64,000 nucleotides of DNA from Methanocellales archaeon (GTDB lineage: Archaea > Halobacteriota > UBA148 > JAUWXC01), in NCBI GenBank assembly GCA_030018435.1, contig JASEEY010000002.1, positions 1-64,000 on the forward strand, written 5' to 3'. A model generated the notes under the pieces. The model was not told where the DNA came from. It worked only from the letters and a program-made list of their open reading frames with translations, and made no database searches. Both the position numbers and the translations under genes were made by a program. Shown piece after piece: positions 11,145 to 34,320 of the stretch (the first letter of the stretch is position 1; every line of letters begins with the position of its first letter).

Positions 11145-11498
11145 CTATTGAATTATCCTAACCCCTTTACCAGAGGGTTTTTTCTCTATCAACTCTTCGA
11201 TTAAAGTGCATTCCCCCTTGGCGGACGTGATTTTATCGTTTGCGGAAGGGGTGAAACTGAGCGCTGCTACAGTAACTGGATGATCTAGAGCGCCTGCACC
11301 AAGTACCTTGCCTGGCACAAGCACGGTCTCATTTTTACTTGTATGCCGATTGATCTTGCTGATATTCACCTCTGCATAGCGGCGTGTAGGTCGCTCTAAT
11401 CTTTCGGCAACGCTCCGCCAGATCGATACATTTTCCTCCCTAGACCTGGCTTTGAGCGTTTCTATCAGTTTTGTCAGTCTTGGATTCGTTTTTGCCAT
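11145..11498 (-). CDS. rpl18e: Ribosomal protein L18e (eL18)
   Basis: Family sequence and operon position. Confidence 0.93.
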   Translation of the reverse strand: MAKTNPRLTKLIETLKARSREENVSIWRSVAERLERPTRRYAEVNISKINRHTSKNETVLVPGKVLGAGALDHPVTVAALSFTPSANDKITSAKGECTLIEELIEKKPSGKGVRIIQ

Positions 11499-11522: not shown

Positions 11523-11652
11523 TGCGGGGGAAGGGATTTGAACCCTCGAACCCCTACGGGACAAGGCCCTCAACCTTGCGCCTTTAGCCAACCTTTTTGC
11601 AAGCAAAAAGCTTGACCAAAAAGGGTTATTGGCCAGACTTGGCAACCCCCGC
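11523..11652 (-). tRNA. tRNA-Leu(GAG) with ~45-nt D-loop insertion/intron (about 11584-11628)
   Basis: GCGGGGG/CCCCCGC acceptor, anticodon stem CAAGG-TTGAGGG-CCTTG, class II variable arm; 130 nt against 85 nt once the insert is removed. Confidence 0.85.
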
Positions 11653-11653
11653 T

Positions 11654-12436
11654 TTATGTTACCCCACTTAAACTTTTTGTCAACGCCTTAGCTTTTTTCT
11701 TGATCTCATCAGCAGCCCTTAGGACCATCTCCATACACGGCATCGACCCATCTGCCTCGACGGAAAACACAAATGAGGCGGGGTCTGCGCTGATTTTTAT
11801 CGCCCCCGACTCACATGCTTTCTCGCAAAGGTGGCACAGTGAGCATTTTATCTCATCTTTGACCACCACTGTTTCATTTAGCTTTAATATGTTCTTGGGG
11901 CAAACATCCACACATGCGCCGCATCTGTCACACCCTGAAATGACGATTTTTGGCAAGTTTTTGTAGCCGCAGGCGACTGCTGGTTGCCATTTTGCATGAT
12001 CCTTGCCCTTGCCCAATCTGGCTATCGCCTCTAATACCAGTTTTTGATCCTTTTTAAGCTTGACGATGGGAATGTCCGTTTCTGTGGGAACGACCTTTGG
12101 ATCGCTGGACTGCAGATCACCCGAGTAAACCGTTTTCGGTCCTTCAACGCTGAGCGTTAGGGATACCTGACATCTTGGGCATCCATCCTCGCACTTGCAC
12201 TCAGAGCGAAGTACATATAAATCCAAATCCGTCCTCAGAGGTATCAGTCCAAGACGCAGGGCAAGTACTTCATCGTACAACACGGATGTGTTCTCGTATA
12301 TGTTAACATCATCTATCGCCAGGGATGGCACCTCAGCCATCATGCTACGCCTCAGGGCATTTGCAAAAGCTGAAGAGACACCAGACAACACAAATTGCGC
12401 TCTCGATTCGGACAATTCGATTACATCGACGTTCAT
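11654..12436 (-). CDS. rpoD: RNA polymerase subunit D with two ferredoxin-like 4Fe-4S motifs
   Basis: LRRSMMAEVPSLAID; CDRCGACVDVCP and CSLCHLCEKAC. Confidence 0.95.
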   Translation of the reverse strand: MNVDVIELSESRAQFVLSGVSSAFANALRRSMMAEVPSLAIDDVNIYENTSVLYDEVLALRLGLIPLRTDLDLYVLRSECKCEDGCPRCQVSLTLSVEGPKTVYSGDLQSSDPKVVPTETDIPIVKLKKDQKLVLEAIARLGKGKDHAKWQPAVACGYKNLPKIVISGCDRCGACVDVCPKNILKLNETVVVKDEIKCSLCHLCEKACESGAIKISADPASFVFSVEADGSMPCMEMVLRAADEIKKKAKALTKSLSGVT

Positions 12437-13897: not shown

Positions 13898-13994
13898 CGC
13901 CGAGGAAGGGATTTGAACCCTTGCAGTGCAAATGCACAACAGGCTCTCTGAATCAATTCCAGGCCTGCGCCATACCGGGCTAGGCGACCTCGGC
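13898..13994 (-). tRNA. tRNA-Ser(GGA) with 11-nt intron at 37/38 (13946-13956)
   Basis: GCCGAGG acceptor, stem CAGGC/GCCTG, loop CTGGAA|TTGATTCAGAG|A; BHB central helix CTGG/TCAG with AAT and AGA bulges; G73. Confidence 0.9.
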
Positions 13995-25290: not shown

Positions 25291-26113
25291 TACTCATCTC
25301 CTTGGCATTGCTCTTGGTTTTTGTTTTAGAGGTTTTCTTAGATTTTTTGATCTTTTCCTTTTTTGCCCTCTTCTCTGGTGCCTCTTCTGGCTTAATCTCT
25401 TCAGCTACTTCTTCTGGTTTTTCAGCCTCTTCCTTGGCCTCTTCAAATTTCTCCTCGACTTTTTTCTCTACCTTTTCAGGTTTTTCTTCAACCTTTCCAA
25501 CCTCAACCTCCTCTGGCGGAGCCCCCACAATCTTGAAGTCATCTGGCAGCTCGACATCCGGCGGGACGATTCTAACCTTCACGCCAATGACGCCCGACTT
25601 TTTGGTCGCGGTGGCAAACCCCTCATCGACGATTCTTTCAACCCCTTCTCCGGCATGTTTGATGTATCCAGCCAATAACTTCTCCGTTCTTTTTCTTGGG
25701 CCCGTCAGCTTTCCGGAGATTATAATCTCACAGCCAAGCCCCCCCGCATCCATTATTCGTTGCAACGTAGAATGACCAGCCTTTCTGAAGTACCATCCTC
25801 TCTCCAGTGCATTTGCCAGGCGGGTCGCCATCATCTGTGCGTTTAGTTCAGGTTTTGTAACCTCTTGTACATCGATTTGGGGATTATCCATATGGAATCT
25901 GGTGTCCAGCTCTTTGGTCAGCTCGTTTATGGTTTTTCCAGCTTTTCCGATGACCATCCCTGGTTTTTCTGCATAAATCGTGATCTGCGTACCCATGGGC
26001 GTCCTGGTGATCTTCATCCCCCCATAGCCGACCCTCTCCAGTTTCTTGGCAAAGTACTCTTGTAATTGGGACTTCTTCAGCCCCTCCTGAACGAATTTCT
26101 TTTCGGTGGCCAT
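25271..26113 (-). CDS. rps3: Ribosomal protein S3 (uS3) with E/K-rich C-terminal tail
   Basis: KH domain; low-complexity tail [26 protein letters not shown]...[12 protein letters not shown]. Confidence 0.95.
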
Positions 26114-29759: not shown

Positions 29760-30572
29760 TTATCTAACTAAGTTTAATATCGATAGGGTTGCAAATACCG
29801 CCTCTTCTGTTCTAACGGTGGCGGTTCCCTGATTTGGTATAGTGTTGATGACGTAGTCTGCAAGGTCGGAAAGCGTGCAGCCCTCCTCGTGCAGGATATC
29901 CCCTATACCCCTTGTGGGAGAACCAAACACAACTGAGACGCTCTCTTTCATCGCTTTCTGCAATTGAGCGAGTAATCGCTCATCTACAATGCTACCCTTT
30001 CTTGATGTTGCAATTACCAGTGGTTGCGCTTTGAGCGTCTCGCCCAGCGTTCCTGAGATTTCGGTTTGATATCCCCAGTACTGGGGGATTTGACGTCTAT
30101 CCCACAGCTCAGCTTGCAGGGGTCTTCGCGAAAAGATCCTGACGGTCACACGCTCTCCCTTGCGCACTGTTCTGTCAGCACGCAACGGAACTGGGCCTTC
30201 TGTGCCGATATCGACCCAAGCGCCTTCGTCAGATCCGACCACGACTCCTTCTCGATATTCTCCTACTTCAGGAGATGAACGCGATGGATGATGGGGTGTC
30301 CGTAGCGGCGGGATCACTCCCACATACTTAAGCTCGTCCATCAAAGGGAAGAGGTGTTTTCTCAGATATTGCGGCGTTTCCGCGTATCTGAGCACCAGGT
30401 CGATGAATTTGCTGTCATCGTATTCTGGATCTTTGTATACGATGATTCTGTCCACCCTGAAAATGGACGCCGCCCTGGCGATTTGTCCCACCTTGTATGT
30501 CTTGATTCGCTGGTCCTTGCTCTCAGACGTCAAGGACGATGGTATTATTATCGACAGATCACCGCTGCGCAT
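29760..30572 (-). CDS. SPOUT-superfamily RNA methyltransferase, archaeal rpl3-upstream family
   Basis: [12 protein letters not shown] knot-type motif, OB-like insert, syntenic position. Confidence 0.82.
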
Positions 30573-32689: not shown

Positions 32690-34140
32690 CACCCCTTCAC
32701 AACACCCATCGGGACGAGTTTGGCAACCGTCTTGCTGATGCCCGCCACTTCGCACACGCGCACGACTTCATGAATGTCTTTATACACGCCCGGCGCCTCT
32801 TCCGCTAAGACCTTCCAGCTTGCTGAGCGTGCGAATATGCCCTTGCTTGCCAGGTTTGCCTTTACCCTCTCACCCCTGAATTGTTTCAGGGCAGCATGCC
32901 TGGACATGATTCGCCCTGCGCCATGGCAGACCGAGCTAAAAGTTTCTTCTTCAGCCATTTTTGTTCCCACCAAAACGTAGCTGGCAGATCCCATGTCCCC
33001 TGGAACGAGCACAGGCTGACCGACATCGCGATAATCTCTTGGTATATCACTCGCTCCGGGACCCAGACACCGGGTTCCACCCTTGCGGTGCACGAAAACC
33101 CTCGCCCTCTTCCCATCTATCTCATGCTCCTCTAATTTGCCGATGTTGTGCGCAACGTCGTAGACAACATCAAGACCAAGCTCGTCCTGCGACATGCCCA
33201 GAATCTTGGTAATGCTCTCTCTCACCCAGTGGGTTATCATCTGTCTATTGCACCACGCGAAATTGGCGGCGCAGGACATGGCAGCGAAGTAATCCTCGCA
33301 CTCCTTCGTTCCCGCCGGTGCATAGACCAATTCACGGTCAGGCAACTTTGCCACCTCTGCTCTAAACACGGTCTCGAGAATTCGCAGATAATCCGTACAC
33401 ACTTGGTGTCCAAAACCCCTGGAGCCGGTGTGAATCATGACACAGACCTGCCCTTCACGTGCTATGCCAAACGTTTTTGCAATATCCGGTAGGTAGATTT
33501 TGTCCACCTTCTGAATCTCCAGAAAGTGATTTCCTGCGCCCAAAGACCCCAATTGCGGAGCACCCCTTTGTTTTGCCTTCAGCGAAACCTTTGCTGAATT
33601 GGCAGATTTCATGCACCCCTTTTCTTCTAGGTGCTCGAGGTCTTTTTCAATTCCATAGCCGTTTTTCACGCCCCATTCTGCCCCCATCTCGAGAACTTCG
33701 TCAAGTTGCTGCGGAGATAACCTGATCTTTCCACCCTTGCCGACACCAGAGGGAACGTTCTGGAATATCTCCGTCACAAGTCCTTCTAAATGCGGTTTGA
33801 CATCCTCCGTGCTCAGATTCGTCCTCAACAGGCGAACGCCACAGTTGATGTCAAAACCTATCCCTCCTGGAGAGAGGCCGCCCGTTTCAGAATCCAGGGC
33901 GGCAACGCCACCGATTGGAAAGCCGTAGCCAAAATGCATATCCGGTAATGCGATGGAATGTTTGTAAATTCCCGGCAGGCAGGCGACGTTTGCAGCCTGC
34001 GTTATAGCACTCTCCTCAACCTGCTTCAGCAAGGTCTCTGACAAGAATATCCATGTCGGGACGTGCATTCCTTCAACAGCGCCCTTGGGTAACTCCCACA
34101 GGCATTCGTTGAGTTTTTTTAATTTCTCCTTCAATGTCAT
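32689..34140 (-). CDS. rtcB: RtcB tRNA-splicing ligase, no intein
   Basis: PDMHFGYGFPIGGVAA, GIGFDINCGVRLLRT, GAGNHFLEIQ. Confidence 0.96.
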   Translation of the reverse strand: MTLKEKLKKLNECLWELPKGAVEGMHVPTWIFLSETLLKQVEESAITQAANVACLPGIYKHSIALPDMHFGYGFPIGGVAALDSETGGLSPGGIGFDINCGVRLLRTNLSTEDVKPHLEGLVTEIFQNVPSGVGKGGKIRLSPQQLDEVLEMGAEWGVKNGYGIEKDLEHLEEKGCMKSANSAKVSLKAKQRGAPQLGSLGAGNHFLEIQKVDKIYLPDIAKTFGIAREGQVCVMIHTGSRGFGHQVCTDYLRILETVFRAEVAKLPDRELVYAPAGTKECEDYFAAMSCAANFAWCNRQMITHWVRESITKILGMSQDELGLDVVYDVAHNIGKLEEHEIDGKRARVFVHRKGGTRCLGPGASDIPRDYRDVGQPVLVPGDMGSASYVLVGTKMAEEETFSSVCHGAGRIMSRHAALKQFRGERVKANLASKGIFARSASWKVLAEEAPGVYKDIHEVVRVCEVAGISKTVAKLVPMGVVKG

Positions 34141-34154
34141 TTACTCCTTTTTTA

Positions 34155-34320
34155 CGCCGAGGAAGGGATTTGAACCCTTGCGTTCCAGAGGAACACCGGT
34201 TGTCTTTCAAGGAGAAACTACGTTTCTCCCTTGACCCTCTTATTTTTCCGTTAACGCTTTTGCACGAAGTGGAAAAGGGTTATTCAAGACCGGCGCCTTA
34301 GTCCACTTGGCTACCTCGGC
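34155..34320 (-). tRNA. tRNA-Ser(TGA) with 81-nt intron at 37/38 (34202-34282)
   Basis: GCCGAGG acceptor, stem CCGGT/ACCGG, loop CTTGAA|intron|A, class II arm, G73; intron contains hairpin GGAGAAAC-GTA-GTTTCTCC; 85-nt mature product. Confidence 0.88.

Follow-up and report, generated by a model that had tools for sequence, protein, structure and literature searches.

Between rpoD and rpl18e, in a ribosomal-protein operon of a Methanocellales archaeon, sits a tRNA-Leu(GAG) gene whose D-loop is interrupted by 45 nt of additional sequence. The window analysed here (64,000 nucleotides, positions 1 to 64,000 of contig JASEEY010000002.1, assembly GCA_030018435.1) carries this gene on its minus strand at 11523-11652, where the sequence reads GCGGGGG TT GCCAAGTCTGGCCAA (45 nt) AGGC GCAAGGTTGAGGGCCTTG ... 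CCCCCGCA. Exon 1 (11629..11652, minus strand; 24 nt, GCGGGGGTTGCCAAGTCTGGCCAA) extends to about position 21 of the tRNA and is the same in nine relatives. It is followed by the D-loop intron (11584..11628, minus strand; 45 nt, TAACCCTTTTTGGTCAAGCTTTTTGCTTGCAAAAAGGTTGGCTAA), delimited by the normal tRNA that its removal restores, by a test of its bulge-helix-bulge (BHB) register and by intron-to-intron matches, and then by exon 2 (11523..11583, minus strand; 61 nt), in which the anticodon GAG, a long variable arm and the discriminator A73 can be read directly. With the 45 nt taken out, what remains is an 85-nt class II tRNA whose anticodon is GAG and whose discriminator is A73. The sequence therefore agrees with the original prediction, which saw an insert in an otherwise intact tRNA-Leu(GAG), and the boundaries guessed at that time (GGCCAA/TAACCC...GGCTAA/AGGC) are those reached here. 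Both flanking genes come from the list of open reading frames: rpl18e (11145..11498, minus strand), downstream of the tRNA, served as the synteny query, and rpoD (Rpo3, with a ferredoxin-like insert; 11654..12436, minus strand) was named from its sequence and gene order. A single nucleotide separates the rpoD stop codon from the 5' end of the tRNA (11652-11654), so that a cut by RNase P would trim the rpoD message nearly at its stop codon.

This is the only tRNA-Leu(GAG) found in the source genome (1.02 Mb, 95% complete). A second intact copy had been named in advance as the finding that would speak against an intron in a functional gene; a search of the source genome returned no second GAG decoder, nor did any of the relatives that were searched yield another GAG gene. 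The codons CUC and CUU are frequent, with 57 and 52 counts in 16 neighbouring genes. A pattern written for the gene with its insert has a single match in the window and none in 100 shuffled versions, and the folding stability of the whole gene is high (z = -4.3). Standard tools fare poorly, as is to be expected of a tRNA with an insert in its D-loop: ARAGORN misses the gene and calls a false tRNA-Thr with a 41-nt intron at the Leu locus, while the Rfam tRNA model recognises the 3' part only, at 15.4 bits against a gathering cut-off of 29.

Within the UBA148 / Methanosarcinales Met33H lineage of the phylum, to which the host and its relatives are assigned, the interruption is pervasive. Sixty relatives were searched with L18e and the neighbouring DNA was recovered; in all nine same-order genomes with a recovered locus, the syntenic rpoD-tRNA-rpl18e arrangement contains a D-loop insert of 31-241 nt, with constant junctions, unrelated interior sequences and varying length. 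An insert that differs in length and sequence in nine of nine relatives excludes an assembly error. Nor is the GAG gene alone, as BLAST with mature sequence located D-loop introns in four of the five tRNA-Leu genes of the source genome, the others being UAA (44 nt), CAG (42 nt) and CAA (145 nt). The fifth, Leu(UAG), is uninterrupted in the source genome, G004 and G007 and interrupted in other relatives, a distribution of presence and absence that is the pattern of an intron. The interrupted-Leu pattern is matched in Methanosarcinales archaeon Met33H (G003; a complete single contig, CP061209.1), in the Methanocellales archaea CSMAG_2511, MAG-838, STD1_76 and MC 2, and in UBA148. Among 394 sampled genomes of the phylum at least 10 have a match, and these are members of this order together with Euryarchaeota archaeon CSMAG_2293 (G155, in three Leu genes) and G386, where a single Leu(UAA) match resembles ANME-2 records. 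Beyond the phylum there were matches in about a dozen Lokiarchaeia, in one Hermodarchaeum and in a single Geothermarchaeota record. All these tallies are minimum values, as the pattern restricts intron length to 21-51 nt and misses G002, G004 and G009 of the same order, whose D-loop introns are longer. Many Lokiarchaeia have a tRNA-Leu D-loop intron at the same site, mostly of 32-33 nt. The Leu D-loop is a recurrent insertion site, and what characterises this lineage is how densely the site is occupied.

The register of the predicted splice signal is unambiguous in the f3 relatives, where GGUC-AAA-CAAC ... GUUG-GACC-AAA-GGC forms a central helix of 4 bp flanked on either side by an AA^A bulge; cutting at these bulges would leave the normal D-loop GGUCAAAGGC. 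The window gene follows the same register (GGCC-AAU-AACC ... GGUU-GGCU-AAA-GGC). On the register map of its minus strand, the 5' strand of the central helix H is exon GGCC (G18 G19 C20 C20a; 11631..11634), paired with intron GGCU (11586..11589); the 5' bulge AA^U (11628..11630) sets the predicted 5' splice site between 11629 and 11628, with the same geometry as in 37/38 introns, and the 3' bulge AA^A (11583..11585) sets the predicted 3' splice site between 11584 and 11583. A BHB-like fold had been proposed beforehand, and a 4-bp central helix with a 3-nt bulge at each junction bears it out. The helix named at that time, CCAA/TTGG, does not hold: it would make one bulge 4 nt long, and the f3 relatives lack it. 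The central helix is instead exon GGCC with intron GGCU. Between the outer helix and the 3' bulge there is no continuity: opposite this bulge, on the 5' side, A13-U17a (6 nt) are unpaired and hold the D-stem apart from H, and the motif is consequently HBh'-like rather than a strict hBHBh' structure. At the 5' bulge, the inner helix h' is good in f1 (AACC/GGUU) and irregular in f3, with 70% of the first four pairs formed overall; the inner helix of canonical 37/38 introns is irregular likewise.

Across 28 non-redundant D-loop introns, all found by synteny or BLAST with the motif not assumed, 98% of positions are paired in the predicted register and 26 of the 28 introns are paired fully; alternative registers pair less, save those that slide along the same helix. 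Loci known from the pattern only (Lokiarchaeia, ANME-2, Geothermarchaeota and CSMAG_2293) were left out of this test, as the pattern demands GRYY before the junction and so partly builds in the pairing of H. Canonical 37/38 introns of the source and related genomes, taken as a control, show the same register, with 90% of positions paired and 32 of 46 introns paired fully. When the 3' strands are shuffled among introns the pairing still averages 97%, and 297 of 2000 shuffles reach the observed value; this lack of separation from chance follows from all strands being GGYY and GRYY, and no covariation is claimed. In this genus pairing is also partly confounded with repetition, since the GGCCAA of the exon is nearly repeated in the GGCUAA that ends the intron. 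For the window gene, the BHB register folds at -20.7 kcal/mol, 3.3 dearer than the -24.0 of the fold slid by the repeated AA.

Both genes expected for protein splicing, an endonuclease and RtcB, are present in the genome. All 11 genomes examined have one EndA gene each, with two PF01974 and two PF02778 domains, and the two N-terminal and two catalytic-domain matches within one gene indicate the alpha'2 architecture; in the source genome the gene lies at contig C23:27034-28053. The best PDB matches are A. fulgidus EndA structures (137.8 bits), and the aligned segment is without the 9-residue stretch that 3P1Y has beyond the wild type. A chimera of A. fulgidus EndA with the Crenarchaea-specific loop has been described (PMC6379350), and 3P1Y is read, from its extra residues, as the A. 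fulgidus enzyme with this loop inserted. A check of the endonuclease type had been proposed with the original prediction; it gives the alpha'2 type without the Crenarchaea-specific loop. Systems of the Thermoproteota type have an (alpha-beta)2 or epsilon2 enzyme with a CSL or ASL loop, whereas the enzyme here is a single-gene alpha'2, and relatives in which no such introns were found have the same EndA type. The RtcB ligase expected to join the exons is encoded in the window (32692..33999, minus strand; PF01139, E 2.2e-172). Reviews describe alpha'2 enzymes as narrow, with euryarchaeal introns at 37/38 (PMC4090602, PMC4033280, PMC6379350, PMC12397907), and HBh'-like motifs are said to be poorly cut by them (PMC6379350); A. 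fulgidus EndA is nevertheless able to remove a bulge-helix-loop intron from full-length pre-tRNA (PMC6379350). By the evidence of its genomes, this lineage appears to be an exception to the stated rule, or a wider case of it.

Introns at other non-canonical sites of the source genome bear on the boundary rule. The tRNA-Ile(GAU) gene (contig C1, about 25711-25954) has two: an intron of 17 nt interrupts the D-stem (about 23/24), and another of about 180 nt the 37/38 site. The D-stem junctions fit the same BHB register, with GUUG paired to CAAU. G004 and G006 lack this D-stem intron, their sequences aligning with the predicted spliced 5' part through 42 nt with no gap, and the G007 gene shows a 20-nt gap where the intron sits. 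Similarly, tRNA-Pro(UGG) (contig C1, 25462-25589) combines a 37/38 intron with a 22-nt intron in the variable loop (GTAG with CTAC), and its predicted doubly spliced product equals the uninterrupted gene of G010 (100% over 72 nt) and agrees at 99% with G005 and G008. Such uninterrupted counterparts are strong indirect checks of the rule by which the boundaries were set. By hand count, introns occur in this lineage in about 24 of 40 identified tRNA genes, D-loop, D-stem and variable-loop types included.

Some of these introns share interior sequence. The window intron contains a core bounded by inverted repeats (11588..11627, minus strand), and BLAST among introns shows 36 nt of it to be the 100% reverse complement of the Leu(UAA) intron core of the same genome. 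The core occurs as an exact reverse complement at C26:22381-22402 and C23:69970-69991 of the source genome, that is, in Leu(UAA) and Leu(CAG). A 22-nt version, CAAGCAAAAAGCTTGACCAAAA, has 11 copies (up to 2 mismatches) in 8 genomes, all 11 of them in tRNA introns: nine in Leu D-loops, one at 37/38 of Ser(UGA) in Met33H and one at 37/38 of Glu(UUC) in G004. The last two are called Thr and Arg by ARAGORN, and their isotypes were assigned from the anticodon arms. Relative to the tRNA, the core is inverted in the GAG gene of the source genome, in UAA of G003 and in CAG of G001 and forward elsewhere, which means that UAA and CAG orthologues carry it in opposite orientations between species of one genus. 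A second module derives from tRNA-Ser(UGA) of the window (34155..34320, minus strand), whose 81-nt 37/38 intron has sequence in common with Leu D-loop introns of relatives and recurs in their Ala, Gly and Gln 37/38 introns; G009 has 27 matches to it. Near-identical intron sequence at D-loop and 37/38 sites suggests that introns move between genes. Copying of introns from one tRNA gene to another is known from Thermoproteales (Fujishima 2010, as cited in PMC4033280), and in the literature searched on archaeal tRNA introns we found no description of exchange between two sites or of core inversion.

Four other explanations of the insert deserve consideration. The insert might be kept in the mature molecule as an enlarged D-arm hairpin of an unusual functional tRNA-Leu, as its stable fold and the feasibility of a D-arm extension would allow. 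Lengths of 28-241 nt among orthologues and isoacceptors with a non-conserved interior, and three genomes in which Leu(UAG) does without it, make this very unlikely; moreover, the same cores lie at 37/38 of other tRNAs, where they would be intolerable in a mature anticodon loop, and retention would place in helices the D-loop residues G18, G19 and A21 that are needed at the elbow. Slightly less probable again is a MITE-like, palindromic mobile DNA element that inserts anywhere and has met tRNA genes by chance, its splicing being incidental. Inverted-repeat ends and copies in both orientations are what such an element would leave, and of a related, looser motif, AAAGGTTGATCAAAA, some copies lie beyond recognised tRNA introns, but the Leu core has no intergenic or coding copy in 11 genomes, the BHB register is always kept at the junctions, and copies at the canonical position are without a target-site pattern.

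We give still less credence to a pseudogene or an assembly error, with CUC and CUU read by another tRNA. An assembly of 29 contigs at 95% completeness could miss a second GAG gene, yet the exons are intact, other GAG genes are lacking among the relatives searched, and the same interruption recurs in nine other genomes, one of them the single-contig chromosome of Met33H. The remnant of a self-splicing group I or II intron has nothing in its favour beyond being an insertion in a tRNA gene, and at 45 nt, with no group I or II Rfam match in the window and none at the locus under a relaxed threshold, its probability is negligible. Nothing but hairpin look-alikes below threshold came out of the relaxed search at the locus (mir-208, 25 bits; cut-off 56).

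The D-loop insert of the window gene is thus a real, conserved and most likely spliced intron. The original prediction, a non-canonical intron in the D-loop of a functional tRNA-Leu, remains the best reading, here on the grounds of conservation, a sole-copy tRNA and the pairing register. In full, we favour a protein-spliced archaeal tRNA intron at about 21/22 of Leu(GAG), drawn from a set that has spread between tRNA genes and sites (probability about 0.88). The endonuclease of usual archaeal tRNA splicing probably removes the 45 bases. In the precursor, the D-loop would supply half of the splice signal, G18 G19 C20 C20a pairing with GGCU near the 3' end of the intron; A residues at both junctions would form the 3-nt bulges AA^U and AA^A, and the intron would furnish the inner hairpin. 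The homodimeric (alpha'2) endonuclease would then cut both bulges and RtcB would join the exons, steps that we infer, as we do the direction of copying. The set may have spread in the lineage by copying between tRNA genes and between D-loop and 37/38 sites, and the inverted-repeat ends would allow a core to sit in either orientation without loss of the splice fold; replication template switching at the inverted repeats is one suggestion for how the core could flip. That this amounts to a euryarchaeal family of mobile introns, with an inverted-repeat core that passes from one tRNA gene to another, changes between the 37/38 and D-loop sites and inverts in place, and with splicing by a loop-less alpha'2 enzyme, is a broader proposition to which we lean with some reserve.

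If true, such a family would contradict the rule by which non-canonical introns require a specificity loop on an (alpha-beta)2 or epsilon2 enzyme. The accepted view links these introns to special-loop endonucleases, and this lineage has many introns, D-loop, D-stem and variable-loop ones among them, together with a plain alpha'2, so that a single enzyme and a single pre-tRNA suffice for a direct test of the link. The cores that different sites share, and that are flipped between orthologues, would offer material on how archaeal tRNA introns spread. There is a practical side too, in that ARAGORN and the Rfam tRNA model miss or mis-call such genes, making the tRNA sets of these genomes look incomplete. 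An intron of this sort in a euryarchaeal setting had been expected to be notable; the non-canonical intron is real, but instead of a lone oddity it belongs to a clade-wide and apparently mobile set.

The kind of intron is already known, and what is new is its setting, abundance and apparent mobility. Non-canonical archaeal tRNA introns occur at, for example, 20/21, 22/23 and 45/46 in Thermoproteota and Nanoarchaeota (PMC4090602), and those described here resemble them in lying outside 37/38, in their BHB-like junctions, in the tRNA restored by removal and in affecting several genes per genome. They differ in their Halobacteriota host, in the alpha'2 endonuclease and in the use of one recurrent site in up to five of five tRNA-Leu species, whereas for euryarchaea with an alpha4 or alpha2 enzyme PMC4090602 reports few introns, all at the canonical position. 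Similar introns in different tRNA species recall the copying in Thermoproteales (as cited in PMC4033280), although here one core occupies two insertion sites in both orientations, in another lineage and with another enzyme type. The one-gene, two-repeat EndA without a Crenarchaea-specific loop is like that of A. fulgidus (1R0V, 2GJW), which is classed as narrow (PMC6379350, PMC12397907); unlike it, the enzyme of this lineage, or a homologue, would have to cut HBh'-like sites in the D-loop. Asgard archaea also have abundant non-canonical tRNA introns (PMC11291895), and the tRNA-Leu D-loop site of Lokiarchaeia found here is the same, but they form a distant phylum.

Two further features of the window lie apart from the Leu gene. 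A tRNA-Ser(GGA) at 13898-13994 has an apparent 37/38 intron of 11 nt, the lower end of the 11-129 nt quoted for archaeal tRNA introns (PMC4090602). At 30139-30232 there is an L4-Archaeoglobi ribosomal leader (Rfam, 48.6 bits; cut-off 34.5), although the named relatives put the genome outside Archaeoglobi.
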